In this document: in pieces, positions 1 to 32,084 of the stretch
Layout of the letters: every line of letters begins with the position of its first letter
Numbering within the stretch: the first letter of the stretch is position 1
NCBI GenBank assembly: GCA_947166895.1
Contig: CAMVFY010000006.1
Location: 1 to 37,766 of the forward strand
Direction of reading: 5' to 3'
DNA from: an uncultured Candidatus Saccharibacteria bacterium
GTDB lineage: Bacteria; Patescibacteriota; Saccharimonadia; Saccharimonadales; Saccharimonadaceae
Length of the DNA: 37,766 nucleotides
The notes under the pieces: model-generated
What the model was told of the DNA's origin: nothing
Seen by the model: the letters and a program-made list of their open reading frames with translations, nothing else
The model's database searches: none
Program-made: the position numbers and the translations under genes

Positions 1-23
1 CTTTGGTTTTCTCCGGCGCCATC
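1..23 (+). repeat. 23-nt repeat copy A, likely the flank just downstream of the DGR variable repeat (target gene lies left of the window)
   Basis: ctttggttttctccggcgccatc matches 2883-2905 (ctttggttttctccgacgccatc) at 22 of 23 positions; copy B lies just downstream of the template repeat. Confidence 0.7.
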
Positions 24-111
24 TCCCTGGAATAATGCGCCCCCTTCCCGCGAGCCACTGCGAGCGTGGAAGAGGCGGCGCGGAACAAAAAAATAAATAA
101 AGTGATAACGT

Positions 112-1098
112 ATGCAAAAGAAACTACCGATGGATTGGTATTTACACCAACAGGATGCACAAAAGAAAAATGATGCTCGTCGGCAGGAGCCGGCGTCGGA
201 GCTGATGAAGGTGGTGGCGGCGAAGGTTCCAGTAAAAAGTAAAATCAAGAAGGATTTTAGTGCTAACGAACAAGAGGAAATCCAGCAGAAGATACGGAAA
301 TTGGCGATACAGAAATCCACTGTTGAGAAGGAAAAGAGTGAGGAGACAATTGAGAGACGAAAGAAAATTGTAGCTATCAAGAAAAAAGCTAAGGAAATGG
401 AAAAAGGAAATCAGTCGAAGATAATTTTGTTCCCTTCGTATTCCAGAGATTCTGATAAGTTGGAGTGGTATAAGATGGGGGAGTTTTCGGCGATGTATTA
501 TGTATACAGAATGGCGGCACGCATGGGTAGGACGGCAAAGCTACAGAAAGATACGGACAAATTTTGGAGGATGAGTACAGTTGCTAGTATTAAGATGATA
601 GACAAATTTCTGGAGCTCGCGAAAGGATTAAATGAAATAGATCGACACGAGGAGACGATGGATGGATTTCATTTATTGTACTTGAAGAAGCCATTAACGG
701 ATGAGGAGGTGGGGGTACTGCGTCGGACTGAGGCCATGCGTAAAGAAATGATGCATAATGTTTTGAAACCGAAGAAAGCTGATACGGGAGTATACCAAGC
801 GATATTGATGGTAGATAGGCAGGTGCTGCCTAAGGTAAATAATATGCAGAAGGGGTATTTTATAACAGTAGGTGATAAGATGGCGCAGAGTATACATGAG
901 CTTACTACAACGTATTTTTTGTATGCGGACGGGGCGATAAGAGTGGAGTTGGCGCGAGAGAAACTATTGGAATCGATAATGTGTTTGATGTCCGGGGTGG
1001 CGTTACTTGGTGAAGTAGATGCGTGGAGTGCCGATACGGCAACTGCAGTAGGTGAAAACGTGAATCATTTGAAAAAATTAATACAAGAGATGAAGTGA
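112..1098 (+). CDS. avd: Avd-like DGR accessory protein with a long N-terminal extension
   Basis: ORF of 328 aa directly upstream of and overlapping the RT; C-terminal ~110 aa (VYQAILMVDRQVLPKVNNMQKGYFITVGDKMAQSIHELTTTYFLYADG...LLESIMCLMSGVALL) has the helical-bundle pattern of Avd proteins. Confidence 0.7.
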   Translation: MQKKLPMDWYLHQQDAQKKNDARRQEPASELMKVVAAKVPVKSKIKKDFSANEQEEIQQKIRKLAIQKSTVEKEKSEETIERRKKIVAIKKKAKEMEKGNQSKIILFPSYSRDSDKLEWYKMGEFSAMYYVYRMAARMGRTAKLQKDTDKFWRMSTVASIKMIDKFLELAKGLNEIDRHEETMDGFHLLYLKKPLTDEEVGVLRRTEAMRKEMMHNVLKPKKADTGVYQAILMVDRQVLPKVNNMQKGYFITVGDKMAQSIHELTTTYFLYADGAIRVELAREKLLESIMCLMSGVALLGEVDAWSADTATAVGENVNHLKKLIQEMK

Positions 1099-2399
1099 TG
1101 TTAGAACACGATAAAAACAAGCCTTTAATGTGCACGGGCGTCAGGAAAACAAATGCTGAAGCGACCAAATTGATGAGTAATGCGGACATGCGCGTACCAG
1201 AGAATATAACGAATAATGGATTTCAGGATTTTTTCGGTTATAAAAAATTGTATAGTGATGGCAACAATGAGGAATGGCTGGAAAATCCAAAAAACTTACT
1301 ACTGTTAGAGTTGTATAATGCTGAGAAAATAGCACGGCGAGGTGGTAAACGAAAGACCATGGATACGCATGGGTTTGAGGTGAATCTGTTTGAAAACTTG
1401 GTGCGGTTAAGAGATGCGTTGTGGGAAGGAGTATATTATCCAAATAGAGGCACGGTGCATGTTATATTTGACCCAGTACAGAGAGAAATTTTTGCGGCAC
1501 CGTATGTAGATAGAATTTTGCATCACTGGGTTGTTGGTACGATTATGAAATGGTGGGAGCCGAGACTTAGCTACGATTCTTATTCTTGTAGAAAGGGTAA
1601 GGGAACTTTGTTTGGAATAAAACGTTTGCAAAAACATATATTGTCAGTGTCTCAGAATTGTACCAAAACTGCCTACGTAATACAGCTAGATATATCCGGG
1701 TACTTTATGCATATTAAACGGGATATTTTATATGAAAAGGTGATGTGGGGGTTAGATCAACAATTTTCGCCTGAGAAAAGAGATAAACGATACGAGATAC
1801 TCAAGTGGGCTATAGCGCAAATTATCTTTGATGATCCGACGGATGGGGTAAAGTTGCAAGGTTCATATAGGGATTGGATTGGACTACCGGAGGACAAGAG
1901 CTTGATGCTACAACCAGAAGGACAAGGAATGGTGATTGGAAATTACACATCACAGACTTTTTCTAATGTTTATCTAGATGGTTTGGACAGGTTTATTACT
2001 TTTGATTTGGGTTATAAACACTATGGAAGGTATGTGGACGATTTTTATTATGTGGTGACAGAAGAAGAGTTACCACAAGCAAAACAAGACATTCGGGCAA
2101 TTGCAGATTTCTTAATTGGGTATGGACTTAGATTGAATTTCAAAAAGACGCGGATTACGGAAGTGCACAAAGGGGTGAAATTTTTGGGGGCAGTAGTAAG
2201 AGGACGACAGATTTTTCCTGGGGAAAGAGTCGTGAAAAATTTTCGTGAGGCAGTGCGGCTGGTGGAAACGGGGGAGAAAGACCCAAGCGTGGTTGTTTCG
2301 TATTTGGGGATGTTCTCACATTACGATGCGGGAAAGATAATTGCTAAGGCATTTGGTAGCGTGGGGTGGAATTATGTATACGACAAAAAGCGAAGGTGA
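1098..2399 (+). CDS. DGR-type reverse transcriptase
   Basis: RT motifs: VFDPVQREIFAAPYVDRILHHWV, QGMVIGNYTSQTFSNVYLDGLD (DGR/IGNxTSQ-type), YGRYVDDFYYVV catalytic YxDD, KTRITEVHKGVKFLGAVV. Preferred ATG at 1098 overlaps the upstream TGA; the ORF track extends to a GTG at 1095. Confidence 0.92.
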   Translation: MLEHDKNKPLMCTGVRKTNAEATKLMSNADMRVPENITNNGFQDFFGYKKLYSDGNNEEWLENPKNLLLLELYNAEKIARRGGKRKTMDTHGFEVNLFENLVRLRDALWEGVYYPNRGTVHVIFDPVQREIFAAPYVDRILHHWVVGTIMKWWEPRLSYDSYSCRKGKGTLFGIKRLQKHILSVSQNCTKTAYVIQLDISGYFMHIKRDILYEKVMWGLDQQFSPEKRDKRYEILKWAIAQIIFDDPTDGVKLQGSYRDWIGLPEDKSLMLQPEGQGMVIGNYTSQTFSNVYLDGLDRFITFDLGYKHYGRYVDDFYYVVTEEELPQAKQDIRAIADFLIGYGLRLNFKKTRITEVHKGVKFLGAVVRGRQIFPGERVVKNFREAVRLVETGEKDPSVVVSYLGMFSHYDAGKIIAKAFGSVGWNYVYDKKRR

Positions 2400-2677
2400 T
2401 ATAATAATTTTGGAATGCTAGGGCGATAAAGAGGAATAAAAATAGACTTCGTCTTATCGTAAGTTCCTTAAGTGGAGATGGCGAAGAACGTACTTTGCGA
2501 GATAAGTTGAGTTTGCGACTAAGGTCAAACCTTCGGCTATCAAGGTAGCTTTGGTGGATTAAAAAGTGTTCTGTGGGCCGCATTCGCGGTTTTGTGTTTA
2601 TTGAAGAGAGGCGTGTGCGAATTTCGCAGGGTTTGCTGGAAGATGACTCCTATCTACTGATTGGAATATCTACCCCT

Positions 2678-2847
2678 CTGTCGGGCAACTTCTACAATAG
2701 CTCGGCGAACAATCAGAATGAATGGGGCAACTGGTGGTCATCTACTTACAACAATGGCAACAACATGTACAAACTAAACGTGAATCCAACGAACGTCAAC
2801 CCGAACAACAACAACAATCGCAACAACGGTAACTCGATGAGGTGCTT
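2678..2847 (+). other. DGR template repeat (TR); boundaries approximate
   Basis: Adenine-rich AAC-saturated region downstream of the RT. In the 2573 frame, 22 of 57 sense codons from 2687 to the stop are Asn (16 AAC, 6 AAT): GNWWSSTYNNGNNMYKLNVNPTNVNPNNNNNRNNGNSMRCL, the pattern of a TR for a C-type-lectin/FGE-like (Fib_succ_major type) variable region. Confidence 0.88.
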
Positions 2848-2882
2848 AGTAGGCGAGTAGCTGGTTTTGAGTTGTTTGGTTC

Positions 2883-2905
2883 CTTTGGTTTTCTCCGACG
2901 CCATC
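2883..2905 (+). repeat. 23-nt repeat copy B, flank of the template repeat
   Basis: 22/23 match to window positions 1-23. Confidence 0.7.
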
Positions 2906-2969
2906 CAGAGGGTTAAAAATTCCAGAGGGGTAGGTGTTTTAGTTCGGGTAGAAATTATGGCTTCAATAT

Positions 2970-4104: not shown

Positions 4105-4197
4105 GGAGGGTTACCCAAGTGGCTGAAGGGGACGGTTTGCTAAATCGTTAGTCTGGAGTGATCTGGAGCGGGAGTTCGAATCTCCCACCCTCCGCCA
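4105..4197 (+). tRNA. tRNA-Ser(GCT), CCA encoded
   Basis: Class II tRNA: acceptor GGAGGGT/ACCCTCC, anticodon loop ttGCTaa, long variable arm, GTTCGAATC T-arm, G73-CCA. Confidence 0.93.
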
Positions 4198-4251
4198 TGC
4201 ATCTAACGATGCATCATTAAAAATGGAATTCGGTTCTCGCTTCGCTCGAAG

Positions 4252-4274
4252 CGAATCTCCCACCCTCCGCCATG
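4252..4274 (+). repeat. Direct repeat of the tRNA-Ser 3' end
   Basis: cgaatctcccaccctccgccatg is identical to 4177-4199 (23/23), offset 75 bp. Confidence 0.9.
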
Positions 4275-4309
4275 TGGACAATATGGAGAAGGGGTGGTAT
4301 AATTGGATT

Positions 4310-4726
4310 ATGAAAAACGTTTTGAAAGTGATTTTATCAGTAGTAATGGTGGGGTTGATTAGCTTGACGGGTTTGTCGACGGTGTCGGCGTTGACTTTGC
4401 AGGATGGTGCGGAGGCGGCGAAGTGCGATGGTTGCCCGGAGAATTTATTCGGTAATACGGGGGTTTTTAAGCAGGTCACAAACACAATTTTGTATATTGT
4501 GGGTATTATCGCCGTAATCATGCTAATTATCGGTGGAATTAAGTATGTGGTGTCGGGCGGTGACTCTAAGAAGGTGACCGATGCAAAGAACACCGTGCTT
4601 TATGCAATTATTGGGCTTGTGATTGCGTTTTTGGCGTTTGCGATTGTAAACTTTGTAATAACGGCGTTGCCGAGTTCTGAAACTGAGGAACAAACTAGCT
4701 TGATTTTAAATTGTACTAACGGCTAA
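4310..4726 (+). CDS. VirB2/TrbC-like pilin family protein (T4SS pilin)
   Basis: Signal peptide plus two TM segments: NTILYIVGIIAVIMLIIGGIKYVVSGGDSKKVTDAKNTVLYAIIGLVIAFLAFAIVNFVI. ATG at 4310 preferred over the ORF-track start at 4223, which lies in the tRNA-tail repeat. Confidence 0.82.
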   Translation: MKNVLKVILSVVMVGLISLTGLSTVSALTLQDGAEAAKCDGCPENLFGNTGVFKQVTNTILYIVGIIAVIMLIIGGIKYVVSGGDSKKVTDAKNTVLYAIIGLVIAFLAFAIVNFVITALPSSETEEQTSLILNCTNG

Positions 4727-5395
4727 TATACCAACAGAGATTTGTGAAACTCCGGCTTGTCGGAGTTTTTTGATGGCGGCTTCCATGCTGGCGCCGGTGG
4801 TCCAAACGTCGTCGATGAGTAGATAGGTGGATTTTGGGTTGATTTTGATTTTGGGGTTGATTTCGTAGGCTTTGCTAGCTTGGGAAACACGATCTTTTTT
4901 GGTGGAGCCAACCTGGACGGTAGAGTTAGTGCGGATTAGGAGTTGTTTGACTTGCCAATTTGAGTGTTTTTTGGCAAGGTGCTTAGCAATGAGTTTAGTA
5001 TGGTCGAAACCACGTGCACGGAGGTGTTTGCTGATGGTGGGGAGTGGAACGACGATGGTCGGGCTACTGATGTGTGGCAAGCAATTGTCTAGAATGTCGG
5101 CGAGCGGCATTGCGAGGGAACGGTTGGAAGAATACTTATAGTCGTGGATTAATTCGTCGATTAGACCGGCGCGCTCTGTAGCGACAAAGATAGGGGGAAG
5201 GTCTTTGCAATGGTCACAAATTCCGGTGGGGGTGCTGGCTTTGCATCTTGGGCAAAAGTTGTGGTGTTGGTTATAGATGTAATTTTTACAACGATTACAT
5301 AAAGCTTCACCGATACACCCACAACCCCTACAAGAGTGGGGCACGAGAAGGTCTAAGAGTCCTGGAAATGTTGTATTTTTTACAATTAGAGGCAT
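4706..5395 (-). CDS. comF: ComF family phosphoribosyltransferase
   Basis: Paired CxxC zinc ribbon (CRGCGC...CNRC...CPRC...CDHC) and PRTase motif YLLIDDVWTTGASMEAA; start trimmed to the internal ATG at 5395. Confidence 0.88.
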   Translation of the reverse strand: MPLIVKNTTFPGLLDLLVPHSCRGCGCIGEALCNRCKNYIYNQHHNFCPRCKASTPTGICDHCKDLPPIFVATERAGLIDELIHDYKYSSNRSLAMPLADILDNCLPHISSPTIVVPLPTISKHLRARGFDHTKLIAKHLAKKHSNWQVKQLLIRTNSTVQVGSTKKDRVSQASKAYEINPKIKINPKSTYLLIDDVWTTGASMEAAIKKLRQAGVSQISVGILAVSTI

Positions 5396-5419
5396 GATTC
5401 TCTTGATTTTACTACGCGG

Positions 5420-5438
5420 ATGCTTTATAATAAAGCAT
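5420..5438. promoter_or_regulatory. Perfect 9-bp inverted repeat overlapping the hsp20 -10 box; candidate operator
   Basis: ATGCTTTAT-A-ATAAAGCAT contains TATAAT (5426-5431); TTGATT at 5403-5408 with 17-nt spacing. Confidence 0.6.
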
Positions 5439-5459
5439 AACAATATAAGTGGAGGAAAT

Positions 5460-5957
5460 ATGGCTCGTACAAACAGTGACGATTTGCTGATGGAAGATGA
5501 CCTCGCTGCTGCATTCCTTGGCGGAGATGATGAATTAGTCACTCCGGCTACACCAGAGGAGGTAGCTGAAGTCCCAGAAGAAGTCAGTGAACCAGTCGAA
5601 GATGAGTGGGAAAATACCGACGACTTTCCTGGACAGCTCGCCGTAGATGTCTACGAAACCGCCGATAAGTTGGTTGTTAAAGCTCGTACCGCTGGCATCT
5701 CGAAATCTGATCTCGATGTCAGTATTTCCGACAATATTCTGACGATTTCAGGCGTATTGTCTGGTGGCGAGGATGAGCAGACGACTAGATGGCACATCCA
5801 GGAATGCTATTGGGGTGAGTTTTCGCGAACGATTGCTTTGCCGGTGCAGGTAAAAGAGGATGAAAATAGCGTGAAGGCCGAACTAAAGGATGGTGTGCTT
5901 ACGATTACCTTCGAAAAGGAAAAGACGGAAGCTCCAAAGAAAATCGCGATTCAGTAG
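5460..5957 (+). CDS. Hsp20/alpha-crystallin family small heat shock protein
   Basis: Alpha-crystallin domain: LAVDVYETADKLVVKARTAGISKSDLDVSISDNILTISG...RTIALPVQV...AELKDGVLTITFEKE; ggaggaa SD upstream of ATG 5460. Confidence 0.93.
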   Translation: MARTNSDDLLMEDDLAAAFLGGDDELVTPATPEEVAEVPEEVSEPVEDEWENTDDFPGQLAVDVYETADKLVVKARTAGISKSDLDVSISDNILTISGVLSGGEDEQTTRWHIQECYWGEFSRTIALPVQVKEDENSVKAELKDGVLTITFEKEKTEAPKKIAIQ

Positions 5958-5972
5958 TTTTGTGAGATGACT

Positions 5973-5999
5973 AAAAAACGCCCGGCGGGGCGTTTTTTT
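5973..5999 (+). terminator. Rho-independent terminator after hsp20
   Basis: aaaaaacgcccggcggggcgttttttt, GC stem with T-run. Confidence 0.85.
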
Positions 6000-6022
6000 C
6001 ATGGGGGGATTTGATAGCTAAA

Positions 6023-6049
6023 AATATCTCCTCGGATTGAGGAGATATT
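6023..6049 (-). terminator. Rho-independent terminator for the minus-strand pilin gene
   Basis: aatatctcctc/gaggagatatt stem followed on the minus strand by a T-run. Confidence 0.75.
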
Positions 6050-6066
6050 AGACTCAAATTATGTTA

Positions 6067-6360
6067 TTAACCGTTGATGTTAGCGATAACGAAGTTGACG
6101 ATTGCAAAGGCAAGAATCACTACAACGAGGCCAATGACACCGTAAAGAATAGTGTCTTTGGCTTTTTTAACTTTGCCGGCGTCGCCGGTAGAAGTCATGT
6201 ATTGGATGCCACCAATGATGATAACGATAACGGCCACGATACCGAGAACACCAATTACTACGTTTAAAATGTTGGTGACATTCCCTGTAAGGTCGGAGGA
6301 GCCATCACCTACTGGGTTGGGTTTGGTGTTTTCTGCTAACTGTATAAGAAGATTCTTCAT
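6067..6360 (-). CDS. VirB2-like pilin family protein
   Basis: 97 aa; ILNVVIGVLGIVAVIVIIIGGIQYMTSTGDAGKVKKAKDTILYGVIGLVVVILAFAIVNFVIANI. Confidence 0.85.
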   Translation of the reverse strand: MKNLLIQLAENTKPNPVGDGSSDLTGNVTNILNVVIGVLGIVAVIVIIIGGIQYMTSTGDAGKVKKAKDTILYGVIGLVVVILAFAIVNFVIANING

Positions 6361-6475
6361 TTTGTTCCTTTATACTTAATTTAGGTTAATTGTATAATTT
6401 ATTTTAGTTTTTTGCAAGGGTAATTTGCAAATTATCTTTTTGTTATCCTTGGGGTTCCTTAGTTCGGCTGTTGGT

Positions 6476-6883
6476 TTATTCACCACCGATGTTGGCGATG
6501 ACGAAATTAACAATCACAAAGGATAGGATAACTACGATAAGGCCGATAACGGCATAGAGGATAGTGTCGCGGGCTTTTTTGGCTTTGCCGGTGTCACCAG
6601 CGGAAGTCATATACTGAACACCACCGATGATAATGAAAATAACAGCAATAATGCCGGTGATACTAATGACAACATTGAGGATGCCTTGGACGGCAGATGG
6701 GAGAGAATTTTCTGAAACTTCGTTTCCACAACCGGCGGCTTCTTTGACGGATTGAGCAACTTTACAATCTGGGCTGCAGATGTTGTCACAAGAATTGGCG
6801 GCGAAGGCTGGGGATATTGCAACGCCAAAGCCGAGAAGGCTGACAATTGCGACTGTCGCTAGTTTAATTAATTTTGATTTCAT
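6476..6883 (-). CDS. VirB2-like pilin family protein
   Basis: 135 aa; signal peptide, Cys-rich segment and the same GGVQYMTSAGDTGKAKKARDTILYAVIGLIVVILSFVIVNFVIANI module; SD aaggagg before ATG. Confidence 0.85.
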   Translation of the reverse strand: MKSKLIKLATVAIVSLLGFGVAISPAFAANSCDNICSPDCKVAQSVKEAAGCGNEVSENSLPSAVQGILNVVISITGIIAVIFIIIGGVQYMTSAGDTGKAKKARDTILYAVIGLIVVILSFVIVNFVIANIGGE

Positions 6884-7625
6884 GGACCTCCTTCGAGATG
6901 TAATTATCGTTTAATAAGCCGGTTTGATTTTGGTTGGCGTCGCGGATGGCGTTGGAAACAAAAGCGGTGATGACTGCGGCAAGAGCTACGATGATGAGAC
7001 CGATGAGTGAGTACATGATCATATCTTTGGCTTTTTTGGTTTTGCCCGGATCGCCGGAGGATGTCATATAGGTGATACCGCCGTAGACGAGGAAGATGGC
7101 TGAGACGATGCCAGCGATGGCGGTGAACCAATTGATAAGGTTTTGGACGAGGTTGCTTGGATCGATACAACCGGAACCGGTGATAGAGTCACAGTTGGCG
7201 AGATTGCCATTTTGGACAAGGAGAATGCGAATGGTGCCCATGATGAGATTTGCCGACATGACAATGGCGAGGCCGATGAAAGCTTGGAAAAGAGTCTTTT
7301 TGCCGGCGGCGACTTTGCCTGGATCACCACCGGAGAATGTATAGAGATAACCGCCATAAATGACATAGCCGAGGACTAGATAGGCAGCAACAACAGTGAT
7401 ATCGGTGGCGATGTTGGCGACTATTTGCCAGATGCCGGTTTTTAAGGAATTTTCATCGGAAATATTAACACCGCAATCCCAAGAAGTGAGACCGAGAAAA
7501 TTAGGGCATTCTTCGCCGTCGCGACCATCGAACGCGCGTGCGGCAAAGACGGGTGTAGAAATGCTCAGACAGAGAAAAGATATAATAGTTAGAGGAACGA
7601 AGATTTTTTTGAGTAAATTTTTCAT
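6864..7625 (-). CDS. Two-module VirB2-like pilin family membrane protein
   Basis: 253 aa with two related modules: VLGYVIYGGYLYTFSGGDPGKVAAGKKTLFQAFIGLAIVMSANLI and IFLVYGGITYMTSSGDPGKTKKAKDMIMYSLIGLIIVALAAVITAFV. Confidence 0.82.
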   Translation of the reverse strand: MKNLLKKIFVPLTIISFLCLSISTPVFAARAFDGRDGEECPNFLGLTSWDCGVNISDENSLKTGIWQIVANIATDITVVAAYLVLGYVIYGGYLYTFSGGDPGKVAAGKKTLFQAFIGLAIVMSANLIMGTIRILLVQNGNLANCDSITGSGCIDPSNLVQNLINWFTAIAGIVSAIFLVYGGITYMTSSGDPGKTKKAKDMIMYSLIGLIIVALAAVITAFVSNAIRDANQNQTGLLNDNYISKEVHEIKIN

Positions 7626-7727
7626 GCTAAATCCGTTTATTTATCATAATGGTATCATAAAATGCGGAAAAATCCAACAACGAGGAAAACATAAGCTTGA
7701 CTGAGGCTAAAAATAGAGTATTTCTTA

Positions 7728-7756
7728 TTGACAAAAACGCTTATGTGTGCTATAAT
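7728..7756 (+). promoter_or_regulatory. Consensus sigma70-type promoter
   Basis: TTGACA (7728-7733), 17 nt, TATAAT (7751-7756). Confidence 0.85.
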
Positions 7757-7790
7757 ACAGTCACGCCTTAAAAGGGAGGCGATTTTCATT

Positions 7791-10700
7791 ATGGTTATCA
7801 AAAAAAGATTAAAATCCGGACTGGTAAAGTTTGTTTTTGGTGTTTTTTTGGTAATGATGGGGCTAATTGGCGGCGTTACTGGTGTGGTCGGTGGCAACAT
7901 GCCTGTATATGCCGAACCAGTTCCGCAAGCTACTACGGACGATGTGACTCAGCCGACACCTGCAACTAACGAGGATGACCAGGCGAGTAACCAGACGAGC
8001 CAAAATGCAGCGCATGGCGATAGCTGTCAGAGTAGCCTTGGTGCGATTGGTTGGCTTGTTTGTCCTACGACTGGTAAGATTGCTGAAGCGGTGGACTGGC
8101 TATATGACAAGATTGAAAATATTTTGGTGATTAATCCGGTGCCGGCGGAGGATGGTTCACCGATTTTTGAGATTTGGAAATATTGTCGTGGAATTACGAA
8201 TATAGTATTTATTATATTCCTTCTTGTGGTGATTTATTCACAAATTACTGGGCTTGGAATATCGAATTACGGGATTAAGAAAACGTTACCGAAGCTAATT
8301 GTTGCGGCGGTGATGGTAAACCTATCTTTCTTGATTTGTTCGCTGGCGGTAGATTTGTCAAATGTGATTGGTAATGGAGTTCGAGGCGTGTTTACTTCGA
8401 TTGCGGAGTCGGCGGTAGCGGGGGGTGCATCGGGGTTCGCGGCGGGTGGTGATTTGACGCGCGAAATGAAGATGTCGTATGCGGGGATGTACGGCTCGCT
8501 GGCTGGTGGTGCGGCGCTTGCAGTGGGAGCGGGGGCAATTGCGATTGAATCTGGTGCGATCTGGATGCTTATCCCGACGGTGCTGGGTGCGATTGTGGCT
8601 GTGGCGACAGGGTTAATTACTATTGCTTTGCGACAGGCGGTGGTAGCATTACTTATTATGGTATCGCCACTTGCGATGGTGGCAAATATTTTGCCGAACA
8701 CGGAACAGTGGTTTAAGAAGTGGAAAGATTTGCTTTATAAGATGTTGATATTTTATCCAATGTTCTCGCTGTTATTTGGAGCATCGCAGTTGGCTGGATT
8801 TGCGATTATCGCCAGCGCTAAGGATGGCTTTGGGCTAATGCTGGGGATGGCGGTGCAAATTTTCCCGTTGTTTTTCTCGTGGAAATTAATGCAGATGTCG
8901 GGAACGTTCCTTGGGAATATCAATGCAAGATTGCGTGGACTTACGGCGGCACCGTTGGCGACGAACCGGTCGTGGGCGGAGTCGAGGCGGCAATTATCTA
9001 AACAGCGACATTTGGCGTCTGGACAGGCGTATACTCCGTCTTTGAGGTTGATGCAATTTATGTCAAATCGGAGAATTGCACGAGAGGCCGAGCTTGGTGA
9101 GGTTTCTGCTGAAGTAAAGAATAGAGGTTTGGCATATCACGCAAGCTCTCATTACCGTAAAGATGGTACGGTTGCGCGGAAGGGCGAAAGGGCCTACGCA
9201 GGACAGGCTAGGAATATGGAATACCAAAGAGCTATTGCACGGCACAGTAATAATATGAACAAAGGCCTTGGCGAGTTGGCAAGGGGATCTAGCCAGAAAG
9301 CCCGACTTGATGCTCTTGACACAAAGAACGTTAATGCGTCGGATTATTTGAAGGTAGAGCAAGCTCGAGGCGAAAAGATTGAGTATGACAATGCGGCTAG
9401 CTTCTATAAGAGAATGGAAGACGCGATGAATGTTCATATGGACGCAATTAATGGATTTGAATATCAAAGAAACAAAGACGGAAAGCTTGTTCTAGATGAA
9501 AATGGCAATAAAATATTGGTACCGAAGTCTACATATAAATTTCACTTTGATCCTAATAATCTCGCTAAGACTGCGGAAATGGCGCGCTATAATGCGATGA
9601 AACAAATCATGGATGGGAGCGAGGCTGACGTTCAGTTTGCGGCAGCGACGGCGGCGCAGGCCTTTGATACCCAAAAGAAGATTGTTGAGACGAAGATGCA
9701 GAAGTACTTTGAACTGGCTCCTCCAACTCAAGACGTGGTTTATAGATTGACTGAGCTGACGAACAGTGCTAGTGCAATAAAAGAGATTGATTCCATTTTG
9801 CCTGGGCTTAGGATTTTGAATCAGCGTGGCGATACGGACTTATTAAGGCAACAAATGAAAAATATTTTGGACCAGGGGCTTGATCTTGGGACCCATGCTT
9901 CGCAAGCACTTGCCAGTTTCTTGATGTTCGAAGTAAAGGATAGTGATCCGTGGCTTCGACGGTTTGGTAAATACATTAACCTTGAGACTGCTAACGTTTT
10001 TAACGAGAATAAACGTCAAGAGATGAAGGTTACTTATGATGAGTATATTAAAGGCTATCACAAAGAGCCAAACGGTAAATTAATGTATGCAAAGAGGCCG
10101 ATGTCGGTACTTATGGAAGGTACGTCACTTGATGGAGTTGAAAGAACAGCATATTCGAACTTTGATGATAGCCTAAAGGAAGTGTATAGCTATATTGGTG
10201 AGGATAAAGAGAAGCATTTGGATGTAGCGGAATATTTGAAAAAAAGAGAGGAAATACAGAATGCGATTGGTCCACAGTTTATTTCAGCAAGTTTGAAGTA
10301 TTTGTCGGGTAGCGAGCAACTTAAAAATGCTGTTAGCTTTTTGACCGGTTATTCTTATTCCCAGGTAAAGAATGATGATGGAAGTAATGTGCTTGATAAA
10401 AATGGTGATGTTGTATATGAGTGGAAGGCGCGATGGGAAAAAGAAGGAGATACTCTGTATGGTAGTGATGTCGCTGAGGAATATTTCCGTAGAAAGACGA
10501 TTGAGTATTTGAAAAATCAGACCCCGTCGCAGATTCTTGGACTCCGTTCGGATTATTATAGTTCGTTAGCGAATCATCTTGTAGAAGAATATGAAAATAC
10601 AGATATGAAAGATTGGACTCCAGAAGCGATTGCAGAGCGAGAGAGTTTAATGAGGGAGCGTGCGGAAATCCAGACGCGGTATGGCGATTTACCAGCAGAT

Positions 10701-11246
10701 AAAGCCCAAGAGATGCGTAAGGCGGATATGGCGGAGCTTAGAAAGAAAATGGCGGGAGCTCAATTTAGACAAGTGCTTGATTCGAAGGGGAAGTTGAACC
10801 AGATTTATAGAACGCGACGTTCTGGTGCGGCAAACAATGCGAAAGACTGGGTGCGAGATTGGCTCAATCTTGATGACGAGGCGTCGATTAACTTTAAGTT
10901 AAATGTAGATCGAGATAGGATGAATAAGCATCTTGATGAATTGAAGAAAAAAGTGATGGTGGAGAACGAAGCTGACCTAGATGGGCAAGTTCAGGGAAAC
11001 GGGATTTACACTGAGCATGATACAGTGAGGTTTACCACTGGGATAGAGGATATTTGGGATGATCTTAAAACTGATGATGATAGTGCGTTTTATGAGCAAT
11101 CACTAAGTTATCTAGAAGAAAATTTAGGCAAAGATAGTTATATCGTTGCGGAATATAAGAGATATCGTAAAGACGATCCATATGCAGATGGGTATACTTT
11201 GAAAGAGTTTCTGCTTAGCTTATTGAGTGATATAGATAATTATTAG
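7791..11246 (+). CDS. VirB6/TrbL-like T4SS membrane protein with long C-terminal soluble region
   Basis: Multiple TM segments in the N-terminal ~400 aa (GITNIVFIIFLLVVIYSQITG..., IVAVATGLITIALRQAVVALLIMVSPLAMVANILP) and a ~750-aa soluble tail. Start trimmed to ATG 7791 because the 7728 TTG lies inside the -35 box; SD gggagg. Confidence 0.78.
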   Translation: MVIKKRLKSGLVKFVFGVFLVMMGLIGGVTGVVGGNMPVYAEPVPQATTDDVTQPTPATNEDDQASNQTSQNAAHGDSCQSSLGAIGWLVCPTTGKIAEAVDWLYDKIENILVINPVPAEDGSPIFEIWKYCRGITNIVFIIFLLVVIYSQITGLGISNYGIKKTLPKLIVAAVMVNLSFLICSLAVDLSNVIGNGVRGVFTSIAESAVAGGASGFAAGGDLTREMKMSYAGMYGSLAGGAALAVGAGAIAIESGAIWMLIPTVLGAIVAVATGLITIALRQAVVALLIMVSPLAMVANILPNTEQWFKKWKDLLYKMLIFYPMFSLLFGASQLAGFAIIASAKDGFGLMLGMAVQIFPLFFSWKLMQMSGTFLGNINARLRGLTAAPLATNRSWAESRRQLSKQRHLASGQAYTPSLRLMQFMSNRRIAREAELGEVSAEVKNRGLAYHASSHYRKDGTVARKGERAYAGQARNMEYQRAIARHSNNMNKGLGELARGSSQKARLDALDTKNVNASDYLKVEQARGEKIEYDNAASFYKRMEDAMNVHMDAINGFEYQRNKDGKLVLDENGNKILVPKSTYKFHFDPNNLAKTAEMARYNAMKQIMDGSEADVQFAAATAAQAFDTQKKIVETKMQKYFELAPPTQDVVYRLTELTNSASAIKEIDSILPGLRILNQRGDTDLLRQQMKNILDQGLDLGTHASQALASFLMFEVKDSDPWLRRFGKYINLETANVFNENKRQEMKVTYDEYIKGYHKEPNGKLMYAKRPMSVLMEGTSLDGVERTAYSNFDDSLKEVYSYIGEDKEKHLDVAEYLKKREEIQNAIGPQFISASLKYLSGSEQLKNAVSFLTGYSYSQVKNDDGSNVLDKNGDVVYEWKARWEKEGDTLYGSDVAEEYFRRKTIEYLKNQTPSQILGLRSDYYSSLANHLVEEYENTDMKDWTPEAIAERESLMRERAEIQTRYGDLPADKAQEMRKADMAELRKKMAGAQFRQVLDSKGKLNQIYRTRRSGAANNAKDWVRDWLNLDDEASINFKLNVDRDRMNKHLDELKKKVMVENEADLDGQVQGNGIYTEHDTVRFTTGIEDIWDDLKTDDDSAFYEQSLSYLEENLGKDSYIVAEYKRYRKDDPYADGYTLKEFLLSLLSDIDNY

Positions 11247-11269
11247 AGTGCGCTGGCCAGTTAGTTATA

Positions 11270-11298
11270 TTGACAAAATGAGGAAAATTTGATATAAT
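11270..11298 (+). promoter_or_regulatory. Consensus sigma70-type promoter
   Basis: TTGACA (11270-11275), 17 nt, TATAAT (11293-11298). Confidence 0.82.
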
Positions 11299-11353
11299 AG
11301 TAGTGTAGGAAGTTTTTTGGTGGTTTAAAAAACTAGGACTTTTACAGAAAGAG

Positions 11354-12046
11354 GTGATTAAGATTAAGTATAAGAATGCGTACGAGAATTGTAAAAGATT
11401 GGTATCTTGTGGTGTGGGCGACAGAAGCCCTGGGTTTTCTGAGTACGAGGTATATGCGGATTCGTTTGGATGCGATTTAAAAGTGTATCGCAATGTGATA
11501 ACGTATTTTGGCACTGGTAAAATGATAGAATCCATAAAAGTTTATCTTGGAGGAAGAGAGGTTTATCGCTTTAATGAAGATGAACCGAGCTGGGAATTCA
11601 TTGTGAGAGGGTATTGGGAAAAATTAGTTGTAGAGCTTTGGCGTTATGAGTCTGCAATTTACTTTGAAGAATCTTATAGTGTGAATGGGGCGCTGGTTGA
11701 ATTATGTAAAAGAGAATCGATGAGAAACCGCAAAATGTTTGACAAGTATCGCGAGCTTTGCGTGCCCTTTGCTAGGAAGAATGGAGCTAAACTAGAATCA
11801 GAAGTCTCGTGTTCGTACCGATTTAGAAGACGAGTTGAGGGCCATGATCTAGAAATAGACTTAAGGGAGATGCCGCCTAAAGAGAAAATCGATTACGATG
11901 ATCGTATTGAGGTGTATTTTGATAAGAAGATTGTGTTTAAGTTCCATTATAATTGTAGTAACATTGGAGGTATTTTCGACGAGAAGGGCATGTACACTCC
12001 TGGCGAATGGGAGCAAATCGTCGAGAGGCTTATTAAAAATTCTTAA
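11354..12046 (+). CDS. Hypothetical protein
   Basis: 230-aa ORF with GTG start, own promoter and own terminator. Confidence 0.65.
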   Translation: MIKIKYKNAYENCKRLVSCGVGDRSPGFSEYEVYADSFGCDLKVYRNVITYFGTGKMIESIKVYLGGREVYRFNEDEPSWEFIVRGYWEKLVVELWRYESAIYFEESYSVNGALVELCKRESMRNRKMFDKYRELCVPFARKNGAKLESEVSCSYRFRRRVEGHDLEIDLREMPPKEKIDYDDRIEVYFDKKIVFKFHYNCSNIGGIFDEKGMYTPGEWEQIVERLIKNS

Positions 12047-12063
12047 ACACCACCAAACTTTCT

Positions 12064-12096
12064 AAAACCGTCAGATTGGGTTCTGGCGGTTTTTTA
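12064..12096 (+). terminator. Rho-independent terminator
   Basis: aaaaccgtcag...ctggcggtttttt. Confidence 0.82.
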
Positions 12097-12146
12097 TTGT
12101 GGTTGTGTTTTGAGAAGTGCGGATTTTAGTATGTTATAATAGGATT

Positions 12147-13013
12147 ATGGCGCAATATAAGGTGCCTCAAGATGTTGAGGCGGACGATAAATTACTCGGG
12201 CCGTTTAGTTTTCGGCAGTTTGTTTATCTTTTGATTGCGGCAGGACTCATTGCTTTGGCGGTGGGCTTGTTTCAGCTTTTTCCGTTACTTGCGATTATCC
12301 CTTTGCCGCCGGTTTTGCTTTTTCTTGCGTTAGCTTTGCCGATCAAAAAAGACCAGCCGATGGAAACATATTTGGCGGCTTTAGTATCATTTTATTTGAA
12401 ACCAAGGAAAAGAATATGGATGTCTGGGCAGAGAGAATCAACGATCACAATTACCGCTCCGAAGATAGTCGAGGATAATCGGACCAGAAATATTACAGGT
12501 GAGGAGGCTACGCACAGGTTGTCGTTTCTTGCAAACATTGTGGATACAGAAGGATATGCGATCAAAGGCGCAGCTTCTAACCCAATGCGCGAAGATTTGA
12601 TTGCTGAGGCTAATGCTACGACTGATATGTTTGAGACGAGTCATTTTAGTAATTTAGAAAATACGATTGCTCGCGATGAAAGTGAACGGCACGCAGAAGT
12701 GCTACGTGAAATGCGAGAAGCGATTGCAAAGAGCGAAAGTATGGGGTTCGGTGGGGGATTCGATCAATCTGCCACCAATAAACAAAGCCAGCCAGGAACG
12801 AATCCTTCAGTAGTGGTGCAGCCTGGGTTATCACCAGTGGAAAAACCAGTGGAAAAACCAGTGGAAAAATCCGAAGAAGTTGAATCTCAGCAGACGAAAC
12901 ATAGTATAATGGAATTAGCAAATAATCCTGATTTTTCGGTTGCGACGATTGCGAAGGAAGCTAATCGAATAAAAGAAAGGGACGAGGGCGAAGTTTTTAT
13001 TTCGTTACATTAG
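12147..13013 (+). CDS. PrgI family T4SS protein
   Basis: MAQYKVPQDVEADDKLLGPFSFRQFVYLLIAAGLIALAVGLF... with two TM segments; order next to TraC/VirB4 genes; contains a VEKP x3 repeat. Confidence 0.8.
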   Translation: MAQYKVPQDVEADDKLLGPFSFRQFVYLLIAAGLIALAVGLFQLFPLLAIIPLPPVLLFLALALPIKKDQPMETYLAALVSFYLKPRKRIWMSGQRESTITITAPKIVEDNRTRNITGEEATHRLSFLANIVDTEGYAIKGAASNPMREDLIAEANATTDMFETSHFSNLENTIARDESERHAEVLREMREAIAKSESMGFGGGFDQSATNKQSQPGTNPSVVVQPGLSPVEKPVEKPVEKSEEVESQQTKHSIMELANNPDFSVATIAKEANRIKERDEGEVFISLH

Positions 13014-13017
13014 ATAA

Positions 13018-13938
13018 ATGAATCCACAACAAAACAGTCAACCACAAATGATTTTACCTAACCAACCAGTTCAGCAGCCTGGTGTTCAGCCTGCGATGCA
13101 ACCGGCGATGCAACAGCAAATGCAACAAATGCCGATGCAACAATTTGCGCAGGCGCAACAGCAGAATGTGAATGCGGCGGGGCTTGGTTCGGCGGCAATG
13201 GTGGCTAATCAGGCTGCACCAGTTTCACCTAATAAGGAGTCGCCACTTTCGACACAGTCAACGCTTCTTATATCCGAACTTCGTGACAACGTGGTAATTA
13301 TGAAGGACGGCTCGTTTAGAGCGGTGGTGGCATGTAAATCAATCAACTTTGACCTTATGAGCGATATGGAACGGGAGGGGGTGGAATATTCGTATCAAAA
13401 TTTCTTGAACTCACTAAAATTTACTACGCAGATTTTGGTGCGTAGTCAGAGGGTGGACATTGGACCATATATTGAGAGATTAAGCGAGATCCGACGAAAT
13501 AACGATAACATGTTGCTGGGTGTCTTGATGGATGATTATATTAATTTTATCGATATTCTATCGCAAGAAGCGAACATTATGGATAAGTCGTTTTTCATTG
13601 TAATACCGTATTATAGCTCGGCGGATGCAGAGAAGGTGCTTCAACAGACTAAAAACTTTTTCAAGTCTTTTTCGAAATCGAAAGCACCAGAAATAACAAA
13701 AATCGATCGGGCGACCTACGAGAAGGCACTGTCGGAGTTGACTAATCGGGTGGACACCGTGATGTCGGGGCTTTTCCAAATCGGAATTCATTCGGTGCGA
13801 CTAAACACGAAAGAGCTTGCACAACTTTACTACAATTTCAATAATCCGGATACGGCCGTGCGACAACCTTTGGTTGATTTTTCGAAGGTTGCAACGATGT
13901 ATGTGAAAAAAGGTGAACGCCCGAAGGAGGAGAGGTAA
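13018..13938 (+). CDS. TraC-like / VirB4 N-terminal-like T4SS protein
   Basis: Gln/Met-rich N-terminus, then STLLISELRDNVVIMKDGSFRAVVACKSINFDLMSDMEREGVEYSYQNFLNSL; overlaps the start of the VirB4 gene. Confidence 0.72.
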   Translation: MNPQQNSQPQMILPNQPVQQPGVQPAMQPAMQQQMQQMPMQQFAQAQQQNVNAAGLGSAAMVANQAAPVSPNKESPLSTQSTLLISELRDNVVIMKDGSFRAVVACKSINFDLMSDMEREGVEYSYQNFLNSLKFTTQILVRSQRVDIGPYIERLSEIRRNNDNMLLGVLMDDYINFIDILSQEANIMDKSFFIVIPYYSSADAEKVLQQTKNFFKSFSKSKAPEITKIDRATYEKALSELTNRVDTVMSGLFQIGIHSVRLNTKELAQLYYNFNNPDTAVRQPLVDFSKVATMYVKKGERPKEER

Positions 13939-15758
13939 TGGCTAGGAAGAAAAAACAATTGACTGCGGCGGAAATGGCAGCACAAGCCGAAGCGCTTGAG
14001 ATGGCAGAGGTTCAAAGAGCATTTGAACAAGGAACTAATACTTTAAGAGATTTGATTTCACCGTCTGCAATTGAGATACATTCGGATTATTTTAGATTGG
14101 GGAATAAGTATGGACGTACATTATACATATATGGTTATCCACGTACGCTTTATACAGGGTGGCTTTCGCCGATTATCAATATTGACGAAGTGATTGACGT
14201 ATCGATGTATGTTTATCCGGTTGAGTCGGCAGTGGTGATGAAAAACTTGAGGACAAAAGTAACACAGCTTGAAGCATCACTGAACTTGAATGCGGAAAAG
14301 GGAAAGGTACGTGATCCAGAGCTTGAAGCGGCAATTTCGGATGCTGAGGAATTACGGGACCAGTTGCAAGTAGGGGCGGAAAGATTTTTCCGTTTTGGGC
14401 TTTATGTGACAATTTGGGCGGACTCACTTGATGAAATGAAGTTTGTGCAACAAAAGATCGAAACGATTTTTGGCCAACAGATGGTGTTTTCGAAAGTGGC
14501 AAGTTCTCAGCAGGAACAAGGGATGAATTCTGTGATGCCGCAATGTACGGATCAATTGCAGATTCGCCGAAACATGAATACCGGTGCGATTTCAACTTCT
14601 TTCCCATTTACGTCAGCTGATTTGACGCAAGATAAAGGGATTCTGTATGGTATTAACATGCATAACAATGGCCTGGTGATTTTTGATCGGTTTAGTCTTG
14701 AGAACGCTAATATGGTGGTGTTTGCGAAGTCTGGTGCAGGTAAATCGTTTACGGTAAAGCTCGAAGCTCTTAGGTCGATGATGGTGGGAGCGGAAATACT
14801 GATTATCGACCCGGAAAATGAATACCAAAAACTTTGTGATGCAGTGGGTGGATCGTATATTCGTTTATCTTTAAACTCGGATGTACGGATTAACCCGTTT
14901 GACCTTCCTAAAGTGGTGGATGCAGAGGATGCTGGCGATGCCTTGCGTGCCAATTTGGTGACTTTGCATGGGTTATTTAGATTAATGCTTGGTGGTAATC
15001 AAGTGGCAGCAAATGGCCAGGTAATGCCTGCGCTAACCGCTAATGAAGAGGCTGACCTTGATCAGGCGCTAATTGATACCTATGCGAGAGCGGGGATTAC
15101 GTCGGATCCTTTGACGCATCAGTCGACACCCCCAACGATTGCAAATTTGTATGATACTTTGCTTCATATGGAAGGAACGGGCCCACAACTAGCGCAGAGA
15201 CTTCGTAAGTATACGACCGGGACTTTTGCGGGGATTTTCTCGCAGCAGTCGAATGTGGATATAAATAACCAAATGGTGGTATTTAATATCCGAGACCTTG
15301 AGGATGAACTGCGCCCCGTGGCAATGTATATTGTGCTTTCGCATATTTGGAATATCGTAAGGGCTGAGCAAAAGAAACGCTTGTTGATTGTGGATGAGGC
15401 TTGGCAATTGATGAAGTATGAGGATTCAGCGAATTTCTTATTCTCACTTGCAAAGAGGGCGCGTAAGTATTATTTAGGGCTTACGACGATTACACAGGAT
15501 GTGGAAGATTTTATGGGTTCCAAGATGGGGCGCGCGATTGTGGCTAATTCTTCAATGCAGTTACTTTTGAAACAATCTGCTTCGGCGGTGGACGTACTAT
15601 CAGACGTGTTTAAATTGACGGAAGAAGAAAAAAGACGGCTATCGAACTTTCCAGTGGGGCAGGGTTTGTTCTTTGCGGGGCCAAATCATGTACATATTCA
15701 GGTGATTGCTTCGGAAACTGAGGAGAGCCTAATTACGACTAACCCTAATGCGAAATAA
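13938..15758 (+). CDS. virB4: VirB4/TraC-like T4SS ATPase
   Basis: Walker A VVFAKSGAGKSFTVK, ILIIDPENEYQKL, Walker B RLLIVDEAWQLMK, TTITQDVEDF. Confidence 0.92.
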   Translation: MARKKKQLTAAEMAAQAEALEMAEVQRAFEQGTNTLRDLISPSAIEIHSDYFRLGNKYGRTLYIYGYPRTLYTGWLSPIINIDEVIDVSMYVYPVESAVVMKNLRTKVTQLEASLNLNAEKGKVRDPELEAAISDAEELRDQLQVGAERFFRFGLYVTIWADSLDEMKFVQQKIETIFGQQMVFSKVASSQQEQGMNSVMPQCTDQLQIRRNMNTGAISTSFPFTSADLTQDKGILYGINMHNNGLVIFDRFSLENANMVVFAKSGAGKSFTVKLEALRSMMVGAEILIIDPENEYQKLCDAVGGSYIRLSLNSDVRINPFDLPKVVDAEDAGDALRANLVTLHGLFRLMLGGNQVAANGQVMPALTANEEADLDQALIDTYARAGITSDPLTHQSTPPTIANLYDTLLHMEGTGPQLAQRLRKYTTGTFAGIFSQQSNVDINNQMVVFNIRDLEDELRPVAMYIVLSHIWNIVRAEQKKRLLIVDEAWQLMKYEDSANFLFSLAKRARKYYLGLTTITQDVEDFMGSKMGRAIVANSSMQLLLKQSASAVDVLSDVFKLTEEEKRRLSNFPVGQGLFFAGPNHVHIQVIASETEESLITTNPNAK

Positions 15759-15777
15759 ATATGCTATAATGTAAAGT

Positions 15778-17199
15778 ATGAGAGGAAAAAGAATTTTCCG
15801 AAAGACTTTAGTTACGGTTTTAATGGCGATAATAACTGCTTTTTCGCCAATTAATGCTTTGGCATTAACTCCGTCGCAACTTGAGATGTTTTCGCAAAAT
15901 AATATTTTGTTTTATGATCCTGCGGGAAAGGTTAAAACTTGTTTTGGGACGCTTTCTGGCTCAACGCTTTACGAAAAGGTATTATCGTTTTTACTTTCAA
16001 TTGGCTTGAATGAAATCGGTGCCTCGGGAGTTTATGGCAATATGATGAGAGAGGGGTTGGGGAGTGGACAGCTCTTATCACACGAGGATGGAGTTGACTC
16101 GCGGAGCGATATCGGCACGTGGTATAGTGCGGCTACATATTATGGCCCAAACGGATTATATGTTCAGGAAAAGGACGTTAGAGATTTGGATGATCCGAGC
16201 GTAATGCACGGATTGGGATTTATTCAGTGGTCTTTTGGGCGGAGAGTAAATCTTCTTAAGGCTCTTGCGGATGCAGGAGGGTTAGACCAATATGCAAGGG
16301 AGTGGGATGATGCAAGCGGGCGATATGTTTATGACGGAATGACGTATGACCAGTTGGTCGAATCTATAGGTCAAGATACGACTGATGGAATTTTGACTGC
16401 TGAGTTGGAGTTTTTTAATTCCGAGCATCAAGGATACAACGTAACACAAGATGATATTGATGCACAGGGCCTAGCGCAATATGGAATTACGCGGGGCATG
16501 GGCATTTTCGAAGCACTAAACTTGGTTTCTACGCCAGAAGAAGCGGCGGAACTGTTTTATACGACTTCAGAAATGCCTGGTGCAACCAGGTTTAATTCGA
16601 CTGGGGAAGCACGAGCTAGCAGTGCAAGAGATGGCTATGATTTGATGGTGTCTGCTGGTATTATTGCGTCTGGAGCTACAGCGTGTGGTGAGGGTGGCGG
16701 TAGTATTGTTGAAACGGCCTTGGCTTTAGCATGGAATAGGGAAACTGAAGGTAGGCATGATAAGTCTGACCCAAAACCTGAATATGAGCAGGCTATGCAT
16801 CAGGTAGGGACTTGGTGGCCAGGCGGACCGTGCGGAAGTGATGGCTCTTGTGCGCCAAACGGTGCTAGCTGCGATGTATTTGTTGCAACGGTGATGAGGT
16901 ATTCGGGATCAGATCCGGATTTTCCAACTTATGGTCCTACACAACAGCGTGAACATATGATGAGCCACCCTGAAATGTATGAGGAAATAGAAAATTTGCA
17001 AGATGTATCGAATTTGCAGGCTGGTGATATATTTGTGGTGGATAATGCGTCGGGTAAACATATATTTATTTATATGGGGCTTGTTGATGGTAAATGGATG
17101 CAAGCCTCGGCATCGTTTAATGGGCGGACAGGCGAATATTTTGAGTATCAAAACTATACTGATTATGGCGAGTTGTACCGGATATTTAGGAGGATTTGA
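15778..17199 (+). CDS. Secreted cell-wall hydrolase (phage tail lysozyme-like plus CHAP/NlpC-like C-terminal domain), likely VirB1-like T4SS component
   Basis: Signal peptide; IGASGVYGNMMREG...HGLGFIQWSFGRRVNLL lysozyme-like region; C-terminal CDVFVATVMRYSG...LQAGDIFVVDNASGKHIFIYMG. Confidence 0.78.
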   Translation: MRGKRIFRKTLVTVLMAIITAFSPINALALTPSQLEMFSQNNILFYDPAGKVKTCFGTLSGSTLYEKVLSFLLSIGLNEIGASGVYGNMMREGLGSGQLLSHEDGVDSRSDIGTWYSAATYYGPNGLYVQEKDVRDLDDPSVMHGLGFIQWSFGRRVNLLKALADAGGLDQYAREWDDASGRYVYDGMTYDQLVESIGQDTTDGILTAELEFFNSEHQGYNVTQDDIDAQGLAQYGITRGMGIFEALNLVSTPEEAAELFYTTSEMPGATRFNSTGEARASSARDGYDLMVSAGIIASGATACGEGGGSIVETALALAWNRETEGRHDKSDPKPEYEQAMHQVGTWWPGGPCGSDGSCAPNGASCDVFVATVMRYSGSDPDFPTYGPTQQREHMMSHPEMYEEIENLQDVSNLQAGDIFVVDNASGKHIFIYMGLVDGKWMQASASFNGRTGEYFEYQNYTDYGELYRIFRRI

Positions 17200-18179
17200 T
17201 GGAAGATTTTATATTTAAGCACCGAAAAAAAATAATAGCTTTAGGAGTGGTGGCCTTGATCGCCATTGTCGCGGTGAGCGTATTCTTTATTGTGCGCGAC
17301 AGATTATATTCGGTAACCATTAATATTACGGTGGCTCCAACGATCGCAAAAGTGAAAATTGGTGATGATGAATATGGGGCAGTGGGTGAACACAAAATCC
17401 GTCCCGGAGAGTATGAAATAGAAGTTTATGCCGAGGGATTTATATCCAAAACCGGTAAATTGACAGCTGTGGCAGATGAGACAATCAACTTTTCTACTTA
17501 TCTTGAGCCGACTGAGGATAATTTAGACTGGTATAACAATCACCCGTGGGATGCAACCGTGCTTGGTGATATTAAAAATGACGATGAGATACAAAAATAT
17601 TACAGTTTGCGTCAAACGGAACCGATTTTGAATTATGTGCCATATAGTACTTATACTTATTCAATTAATTATGAGTACGACTGCGCCGAAAACGGTGGGG
17701 GGATTTGTTTGGTTTTAGATGGTGATATGGGACTTAGAAATGTGATGGTGAGGTATTTACAACGAAGTAATGAGGATTTGTCTCCTTACGAAGTGAAGAT
17801 TAAAAATTACGAAAAGCCGTTTAGTGATGCCGAGCTGAGTGTGCCGGAAGGTTTGGATTACGATGGTAATAGTGAAATGGATTTGTCAACGGAAGTGGCG
17901 GCAGTTAGGGAGTTGGCAAATAGTTTTGCTGAAAAACAATTAAGTATTAGTGGCTACGAAGTGAGTGTTGCTCAGATTAAATCTTACGGAAATTATTGTG
18001 GTGTGAAAGTTGATTTGAGCCCTGTTGGTGGCGACGGGAAGGTGTTTGATACATATAGGATGTTGATAGGTAAAATTGATGGTAGCTGGATGGTGATTAG
18101 TAATCTGGACTGGATACTTAGCCGGTTTGATAATCCAAAATTGCCGGCAGAATTATTGCGAGATGTGAACACTTTGTAA
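17199..18179 (+). CDS. Membrane-anchored protein with PEGA-like domain
   Basis: N-terminal TM, then APTIAKVKIGDDEYGAVGEHKIRPGEYEIEVYAEGFISKTG (PEGA-like); ATGA-type overlap with the upstream stop. Confidence 0.72.
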   Translation: MEDFIFKHRKKIIALGVVALIAIVAVSVFFIVRDRLYSVTINITVAPTIAKVKIGDDEYGAVGEHKIRPGEYEIEVYAEGFISKTGKLTAVADETINFSTYLEPTEDNLDWYNNHPWDATVLGDIKNDDEIQKYYSLRQTEPILNYVPYSTYTYSINYEYDCAENGGGICLVLDGDMGLRNVMVRYLQRSNEDLSPYEVKIKNYEKPFSDAELSVPEGLDYDGNSEMDLSTEVAAVRELANSFAEKQLSISGYEVSVAQIKSYGNYCGVKVDLSPVGGDGKVFDTYRMLIGKIDGSWMVISNLDWILSRFDNPKLPAELLRDVNTL

Positions 18180-27104: not shown

Positions 27105-27137
27105 TTTTATTCCTTTCCTTTTTCGAGTTTAATATTA

Positions 27138-30014: not shown

Positions 30015-30015
30015 G

Positions 30016-31521: not shown

Positions 31522-32084
31522 TATTTTACTCCTTTTATAAGTTCGTTTTTTAATGCTTTGGTTAGCTTATCGCTGGCTTCCTTATATTTGGCTATCGTTA
31601 TTTGGTAATCGTCGATCGTCCTGGTAATAATTTCGAGTTGGTCTTGCTTTTCTAGCGGGGTCTGGGGGCAATTAAGTAAGCCAAGCGAAGAAGGGGAGAG
31701 GATTGAAACGGTTTGGCCAGAAGAAAGGGAACGAAGGAACCGTTGGCTACCTGGTGCGTTGATGATTTCGGTTATGTAAGATGGTTTATAATTGGTCGAA
31801 GTTAGGTGGACGATAATCAGTGTATTAGCTGCAATATATCGATATTTTTGATTCGGAATTCTAAAAACTTTTGCTTCGTAGAGGGGCCCCCGGGATTTTA
31901 CTAGGATGTCGCCGTTTTGTAAATAGTTTTGGTAGGAGTTTGGGATATGTACTTCATCTACGTCGATAAAATTCGACGCTAAATCTTTGGCGGAAACGAG
32001 GCGGACTGCTTGTAAGTTAGTATTAGAAATGTTACGGGAATTGTAGCCTGTGTGGATTGTTGAAAGATTTTGTAACCTGTCCAT
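31521..32084 (-). CDS. Half-size type I specificity subunit S-like protein
   Basis: 187 aa with one TRD plus one coiled coil (TPLEKQDQLEIITRTIDDYQITIAKYKEASDKLTKALKNELIKG); overlaps hsdM start. Confidence 0.82.
   Translation of the reverse strand: MDRLQNLSTIHTGYNSRNISNTNLQAVRLVSAKDLASNFIDVDEVHIPNSYQNYLQNGDILVKSRGPLYEAKVFRIPNQKYRYIAANTLIIVHLTSTNYKPSYITEIINAPGSQRFLRSLSSGQTVSILSPSSLGLLNCPQTPLEKQDQLEIITRTIDDYQITIAKYKEASDKLTKALKNELIKGVK

Follow-up and report, generated by a model that had tools for sequence, protein, structure and literature searches.

The cassette at the start of the 37,766-nt stretch of DNA analysed in the present study (the window) can be regarded with high confidence as a genuine chromosomal diversity-generating retroelement (DGR) with multiple targets in a gut-associated Saccharibacterium. 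Its genome, of 0.66 Mb, is assembled in 33 contigs, of which the window is C6. The template repeat (TR), its variable repeats (VRs), the adenine bias, the reverse transcriptase (RT) and the Avd fold of the accessory protein are facts of the sequence (table 1). On a balance that tips only slightly in its favour, the data also suggest that Saccharibacterial DGRs use a rearranged template, namely a stand-alone non-coding RNA with its RT-recruiting or priming structure 5' and not 3' of the TR, with clamped TR ends, with a gene that can flip or move apart from the RT, and with an Avd protein that has gained an extra alpha/beta domain.

Table 1. Features of the DGR in the window, and VRs of its TR on other contigs of the genome.
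Feature	Position	Strand	Basis
Fifth VR, 3' end only (IMH part)	1-23	+	22/23 match to TR 3' end; flank common with C18 and C25
VR-specific 3' flank (TCTCCCTGGAATAATGCGCCCCCTTCCCGCGAGC..TGCGAGC), candidate target-recognition element	24-75	+	absent from TR flank
Avd-type accessory protein gene	112-1098	+	328 aa; ORF; AF2 and Foldseek
DGR reverse transcriptase gene	1095-2399	+	IGNYTSQ and YVDD; RVT_1 8e-15; best PDB match BPP-1 bRT
TATAAT, putative -10 box of TR RNA	2400-2405	+	sequence; directly 3' of RT stop codon
Structured 5' leader core of TR RNA, 4 helices	2461-2579	+	covariance model R1/R2 match, 78 bits; covariation
Long-range stem within leader core	2485-2491 with 2566-2572	+	covariation
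TR, with IMH* at 3' end	2667-2905	+	four A-specific VR copies elsewhere in genome
TR end clamp, 5' arm (CTACCCCTCTG)	2670-2680	+	perfect 11-bp complement of 2923-2933
TR 3' flank: conserved GGTTAAAAATTCC motif, then clamp 3' arm (CAGAGGGGTAG, 2923-2933)	2906-2933	+	conservation, pairing
VR	C18:14874-15112		changed: A 21/71, non-A 1/168
VR	C7:30563-30764		changed: A 23/68, non-A 2/134
VR	C25:133-365		changed: A 34/67, non-A 7/166
VR	C9:23115-23340		changed: A 29/69, non-A 18/157

A DNA search of the whole genome, with window positions 2560-2930 as the query, returned four further copies of the TR as well as the 23-bp end at window 1-23. Since the copies differ mainly where the window copy has an A, the latter was taken as the template and the other copies as VRs. 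When the four VRs were pooled, 107/275 TR adenines were changed, compared with 28/624 non-A sites, and Fisher p values for the A-specificity of the single VRs ranged from 5.5e-7 to 1.1e-15. The changes at TR adenines were predominantly A-to-G (68), followed by A-to-T (30) and A-to-C (9). The original prediction, which was made from the window sequence, had made itself dependent on A-specific near-copies of 2678-2860 in the genome, and the DNA search found such copies. The two ORFs (112-1098 and 1095-2399) and the A-rich stretch are present as it had described them. Its core of the TR is real, with homology extending somewhat beyond it on both sides, and its count of 22 AAC/AAT codons is correct, the total being 61 codons in 2678-2860 (58 from GNFYN) and not the 57 that had been given. 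The ORF at 2573-2860 was not regarded as a real gene, since it arises from reading the TR in the frame of the VRs. The C25 VR (L009:133-365) was found to be two whole codons shorter than the TR, its A-rich part having a 3-nt gap at two places; an in-frame loss of codons is unusual for a DGR VR.

A 3' flank past the end of the TR homology is common to the C18 VR, the C25 VR and the VR at the start of C6, and a part of it is retained at C9. In the window this flank (24-75) can form a modest hairpin, the DNA fold of which (z=-0.78) is not significant alone. A hairpin is typical of DGR targets (PMC3240598). The hairpins that follow the VRs of the window's TR (TR1) were not above shuffles, and that of the second DGR described below reached z=-5.5.

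All VRs terminate ORFs with similarity to FISUMP / Fib_succ_major (Pfam/TIGR), and the VR domain forms the C-terminal end of that domain. A surface-display type of target had been expected, and the VRs do lie at the 3' ends of genes for surface-type proteins, except that these are several genes on other contigs and not a single one. The fifth VR is severed by the contig start, and its target gene lies outside the window. The TR1 target genes are likewise severed by contig ends near their VRs, a probable effect of upstream parts that recur among paralogues, and signal peptides would fall outside the assembled parts. The C7 and C9 targets are 73% identical over 250 aa. Many further FISUMP-domain proteins are encoded on contigs C1, C2, C4, C10, C11 and C13 of genome G000, most of them matched by neither TR, and several FISUMP proteins of this genome have two FISUMP domains together with Listeria-Bacteroides repeats.

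The RT shows the DGR-type motifs that had been claimed for it (IGNxTSQ-type, here IGNYTSQ, and YVDD), and the motif is conserved in its relatives. Its best match in the PDB was 8ub7_A (E=2.5e-19), which was confirmed as the BPP-1 brt, ahead of a group II maturase (4.7e-6). Among solved structures the BPP-1 bRT thus outranks the group II maturase, which bears out the assignment of the enzyme to the DGR type and not to group II introns or retrons. Exactly two RTs were found in the genome; both are DGR RTs and each has its own TR.

An Avd-like gene had been proposed upstream of the RT, and the structural model agrees with this. The accessory protein had no Pfam match. Its AF2 model, built with 27 homologues, had a pLDDT of 91.7 (a single-sequence run, with a pLDDT of 39, was useless), and shows N-terminal helices, an alpha/beta domain (residues 103-191) and an Avd-like helical bundle (residues 197-325). 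In a Foldseek search of this model, residues ~197-325 matched the BPP-1 Avd 4dwl (TMt 0.79, rmsd 1.8, probability 1.00), and the domain also matched the DGR RNP chains 8ubb_D and 8ub7_E and S23-type bundles. The E-values were weak because the match covers only a third of the query. As modelled, the C-terminal domain has the Avd fold and folds like BPP-1 Avd, while the first ~195 residues are an extension made up of helices and the alpha/beta domain. For this extension a likeness to MutS domain I is at best hinted at (Pfam MutS_I, E=0.041 in 1/27 homologues), and a search for MutS domain I (MSL-type) gave no sequence match over the cut-off. A profile of the Avd family sequences returned only noise against the PDB. 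Three of the 27 Avd-type homologues carry HTH_3 (best E 2.3e-7), an N-terminal helix-turn-helix being present at L039:2640-3683, L047:2667-3689 and L055:473-1489, which suggests DNA binding or autoregulation by these homologues.

Other gene clusters were observed in the window. A T4SS-like cluster at 4223-18179 includes a pilin (PF18895), a TraG/VirB4-type ATPase and a lysozyme-type protein. The T4SS/pilus genes mentioned in the original prediction are therefore present, but nothing connects these genes with the DGR. For tRNA-Ser(GCT), the 3' end has an exact repeat 75 bp downstream (4177-4199 and 4252-4274), resembling an attachment-site duplication. Within a type I restriction-modification operon at 23973-32084, HsdS is encoded in full at 27138-28250, and a shorter HsdS-like ORF that lacks a Pfam match stands apart from it (31521-32084); no inverted repeats of >=16 nt indicative of HsdS shuffling were found in this operon.

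A second, complete DGR was found in the same genome on contig C1 (L062:9499-13365). Its parts are an RT, an Avd-type gene, a TR and a FISUMP target whose VR is followed by a strong hairpin. In this pair 22/67 adenines and 0/151 other sites of the TR were changed, and the TR is encoded on the other strand from the RT. Two more VR matches, which were weaker, were detected on C4 and C10. Over the whole genome, the count is two TRs and no fewer than eight candidate VR sites.

A matching RT was present in 59 of 150 relatives, mostly within the genus. Those RT relatives that carry names are Candidatus Saccharibacteria, four of them from sheep or goat gut and one a MAG. A-specific TR/VR pairs were found near the RT in nearly all of the related loci that were scanned, no pair being found in L051 and L053. 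Within the genus clade, the TR lies opposite the RT strand in 27/30 Saccharibacteria loci; the exceptions, with a TR on the RT strand, are L057, L058 and the window, which are nested within this clade. In the distant Patescibacteria that were sampled, the TR was mostly upstream of the RT and on the RT strand.

A conserved structured leader of ~120 nt precedes the TR in the TR sense, whichever way the TR is oriented, and leader and TR are thus independent of the RT strand. The long-range stem of the leader covaries: its summed lengths were 169, compared with 117.6±4.8 when arms were swapped among systems (0/5000). For clade A alone, where the position of the arm was set by the alignment alone, the values were 84 and 58.7±3.8 (0/5000). 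In the second clade some 5' arms were picked by eye with complementarity in view, and for this reason only the clade A permutation and the covariance-model matches are free of arm-choice bias. Double-sided changes in the leader numbered 46 against 16.1±3.1 in shuffles, in a model-fitted alignment that leans to its own structure, and were far fewer in slid controls. The covariance model R1, built from 11 sequences, recovered two loci that had been excluded from it (L049 and L072), and the matches adjoin DGR RTs and lie on the TR strand (150 relatives; up to 393 genomes of the class). A search of Rfam gave no match for the leader. TATAAT was found upstream of 21/25 leaders, mostly 80-115 nt before the core, compared with a mean of 3.3 and a maximum of 8 in shuffles.

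The two ends of the TR can pair as a clamp in the window's clade, for which a permutation over 11 systems gave 99 against 68±4.8 (0/2000). In this clade the 3' partner of the TR 5' end often lies in a hairpin loop (L030-L035). The same permutation test did not find the clamp in the other clade (88 vs 88.5). The pairing appears in both the MFE and the centroid fold of window 2406-2960, and this region as a whole folds no better than shuffles (z=-0.18).

If the window is considered by itself, the data would also suit an ordinary DGR, in which the leader is the 3' UTR of the RT gene or regulates RT expression, and the avd-RT transcript supplies the TR RNA, as it does in BPP-1. Leader and TR are here on the RT strand, directly past the RT stop codon, and BPP-1 has all its parts on a single strand. 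This explanation is nevertheless unlikely. The leader cannot be an RT 3' UTR in the 27/30 relatives where the RT is on the other strand from leader and TR, and the covariance-model matches on the TR strand and the TATAAT before most leaders also speak against it. A group II intron, retron or antiviral RT, with the likeness of TR and VR due to a repeat family, can be dismissed almost entirely. Although the best NCBIfam match of the RT is a group II RT (far under the cut-off) and many DRT profiles match weakly, the A-specific substitutions in all four VRs already refute such a reading, the best solved match is BPP-1 bRT, the partner has an Avd fold, and loci across the genus repeat this layout, A-specific pairs included.

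The state of individual VRs bears on whether the system has decayed, with RT, Avd and TR remaining and the targets no longer diversified. The C7 VR lacks both the IMH end and the 3' flank, and the C9 VR combines 18 non-A changes with an altered flank. These two VRs may be retired sites, with 3' elements lost or altered; for C9 this fits the highest number of non-A changes among the VRs and the only partial 3' flank. Decay of the whole system is very unlikely, as the RT and Avd ORFs are intact, the RT motif is conserved, and the C18 VR has a single non-A change in 168 sites beside 21 A changes, which indicates that it was rewritten recently relative to drift.

For the preferred reading, a working DGR with a stand-alone template RNA, we infer from the known DGR mechanism that the RT and its Avd-domain partner would copy the TR RNA into cDNA with errors at adenines, and that in several FISUMP-domain genes the cDNA would replace, in trans, the VR, the 3' end that matches it. 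The C-terminal domain of putative secreted or surface proteins would thereby be diversified. Most likely, the TR is made as its own RNA from the putative promoter just 3' of the RT gene, and the fact that leader and TR do not keep to the RT strand supports a separate TR RNA gene. For recruitment and priming we likewise infer roles of the leader and the clamp. The folded 5' leader probably recruits RT-Avd or positions the primer, being proposed as the recruiting element because no large conserved structure other than this one, 5' of the TR, was found. The clamp of the window's subclade would join both TR ends, perhaps setting the start or stop of the cDNA.

The window system resembles the DGR of Bordetella phage BPP-1 (mtd-avd-TR-brt) in its RT family, Avd fold and A-specific TR/VR pairs, in a target gene whose 3' end is the VR and in an IMH-like common 3' end. 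It does not have the BPP-1 type of layout, in which the TR lies between avd and brt on one strand, whereas here it is 3' of the RT and, in relatives, usually on the opposite strand. In BPP-1, a structured spacer 3' of the TR shares a transcript with avd and brt and serves both to recruit RT-Avd and to prime the cDNA at IMH* (PMC12875486); in the window system the structured element is instead a leader 5' of the TR. The N-terminal extension of the Avd protein and the several remote FISUMP targets are also unlike BPP-1.

DGRs in Patescibacteria are already known (PMC8144416), as are multi-target DGRs elsewhere (PMC10907252). Like the CPR/Patescibacteria DGRs (DGR clade 2, Roux et al. 2021, PMC8144416), the present system belongs to the same supergroup, is chromosomal and is A-specific. 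The targets of CPR DGRs typically have no recognisable domains (Roux et al. 2021, PMC8144416), unlike those of the window system with their FISUMP matches (Pfam/TIGR). Thiohalocapsa PB-PSB1 (PMC10907252) likewise combines, within a single genome, more than one target with candidate diversification at a distance (trans), but is a large multicellular bacterium with conflict-system targets and transposon-spread loci, as opposed to FISUMP paralogues in a genome of 0.66 Mb. A literature search, which did not cover the main DGR surveys, found no account of an inverted TR with a 5' leader. The opposite-strand TR in most relatives, the covarying 5' leader, the TATAAT box and the TR end clamp go beyond what had originally been predicted for this locus.

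The biochemistry of DGR RNA rests largely on BPP-1, and a leader that is 5' of the TR and encoded apart from the RT provides a natural comparison for the essential parts of the RNA. The covariance model of the leader is a tool to find more such systems. The bacterial group concerned is known as small-celled and host-dependent, and here a genome of ~0.66 Mb holds two DGRs and, on FISUMP proteins, eight or more candidate VR sites. The diversification of surface-type proteins in such small bacteria thus becomes directly testable.
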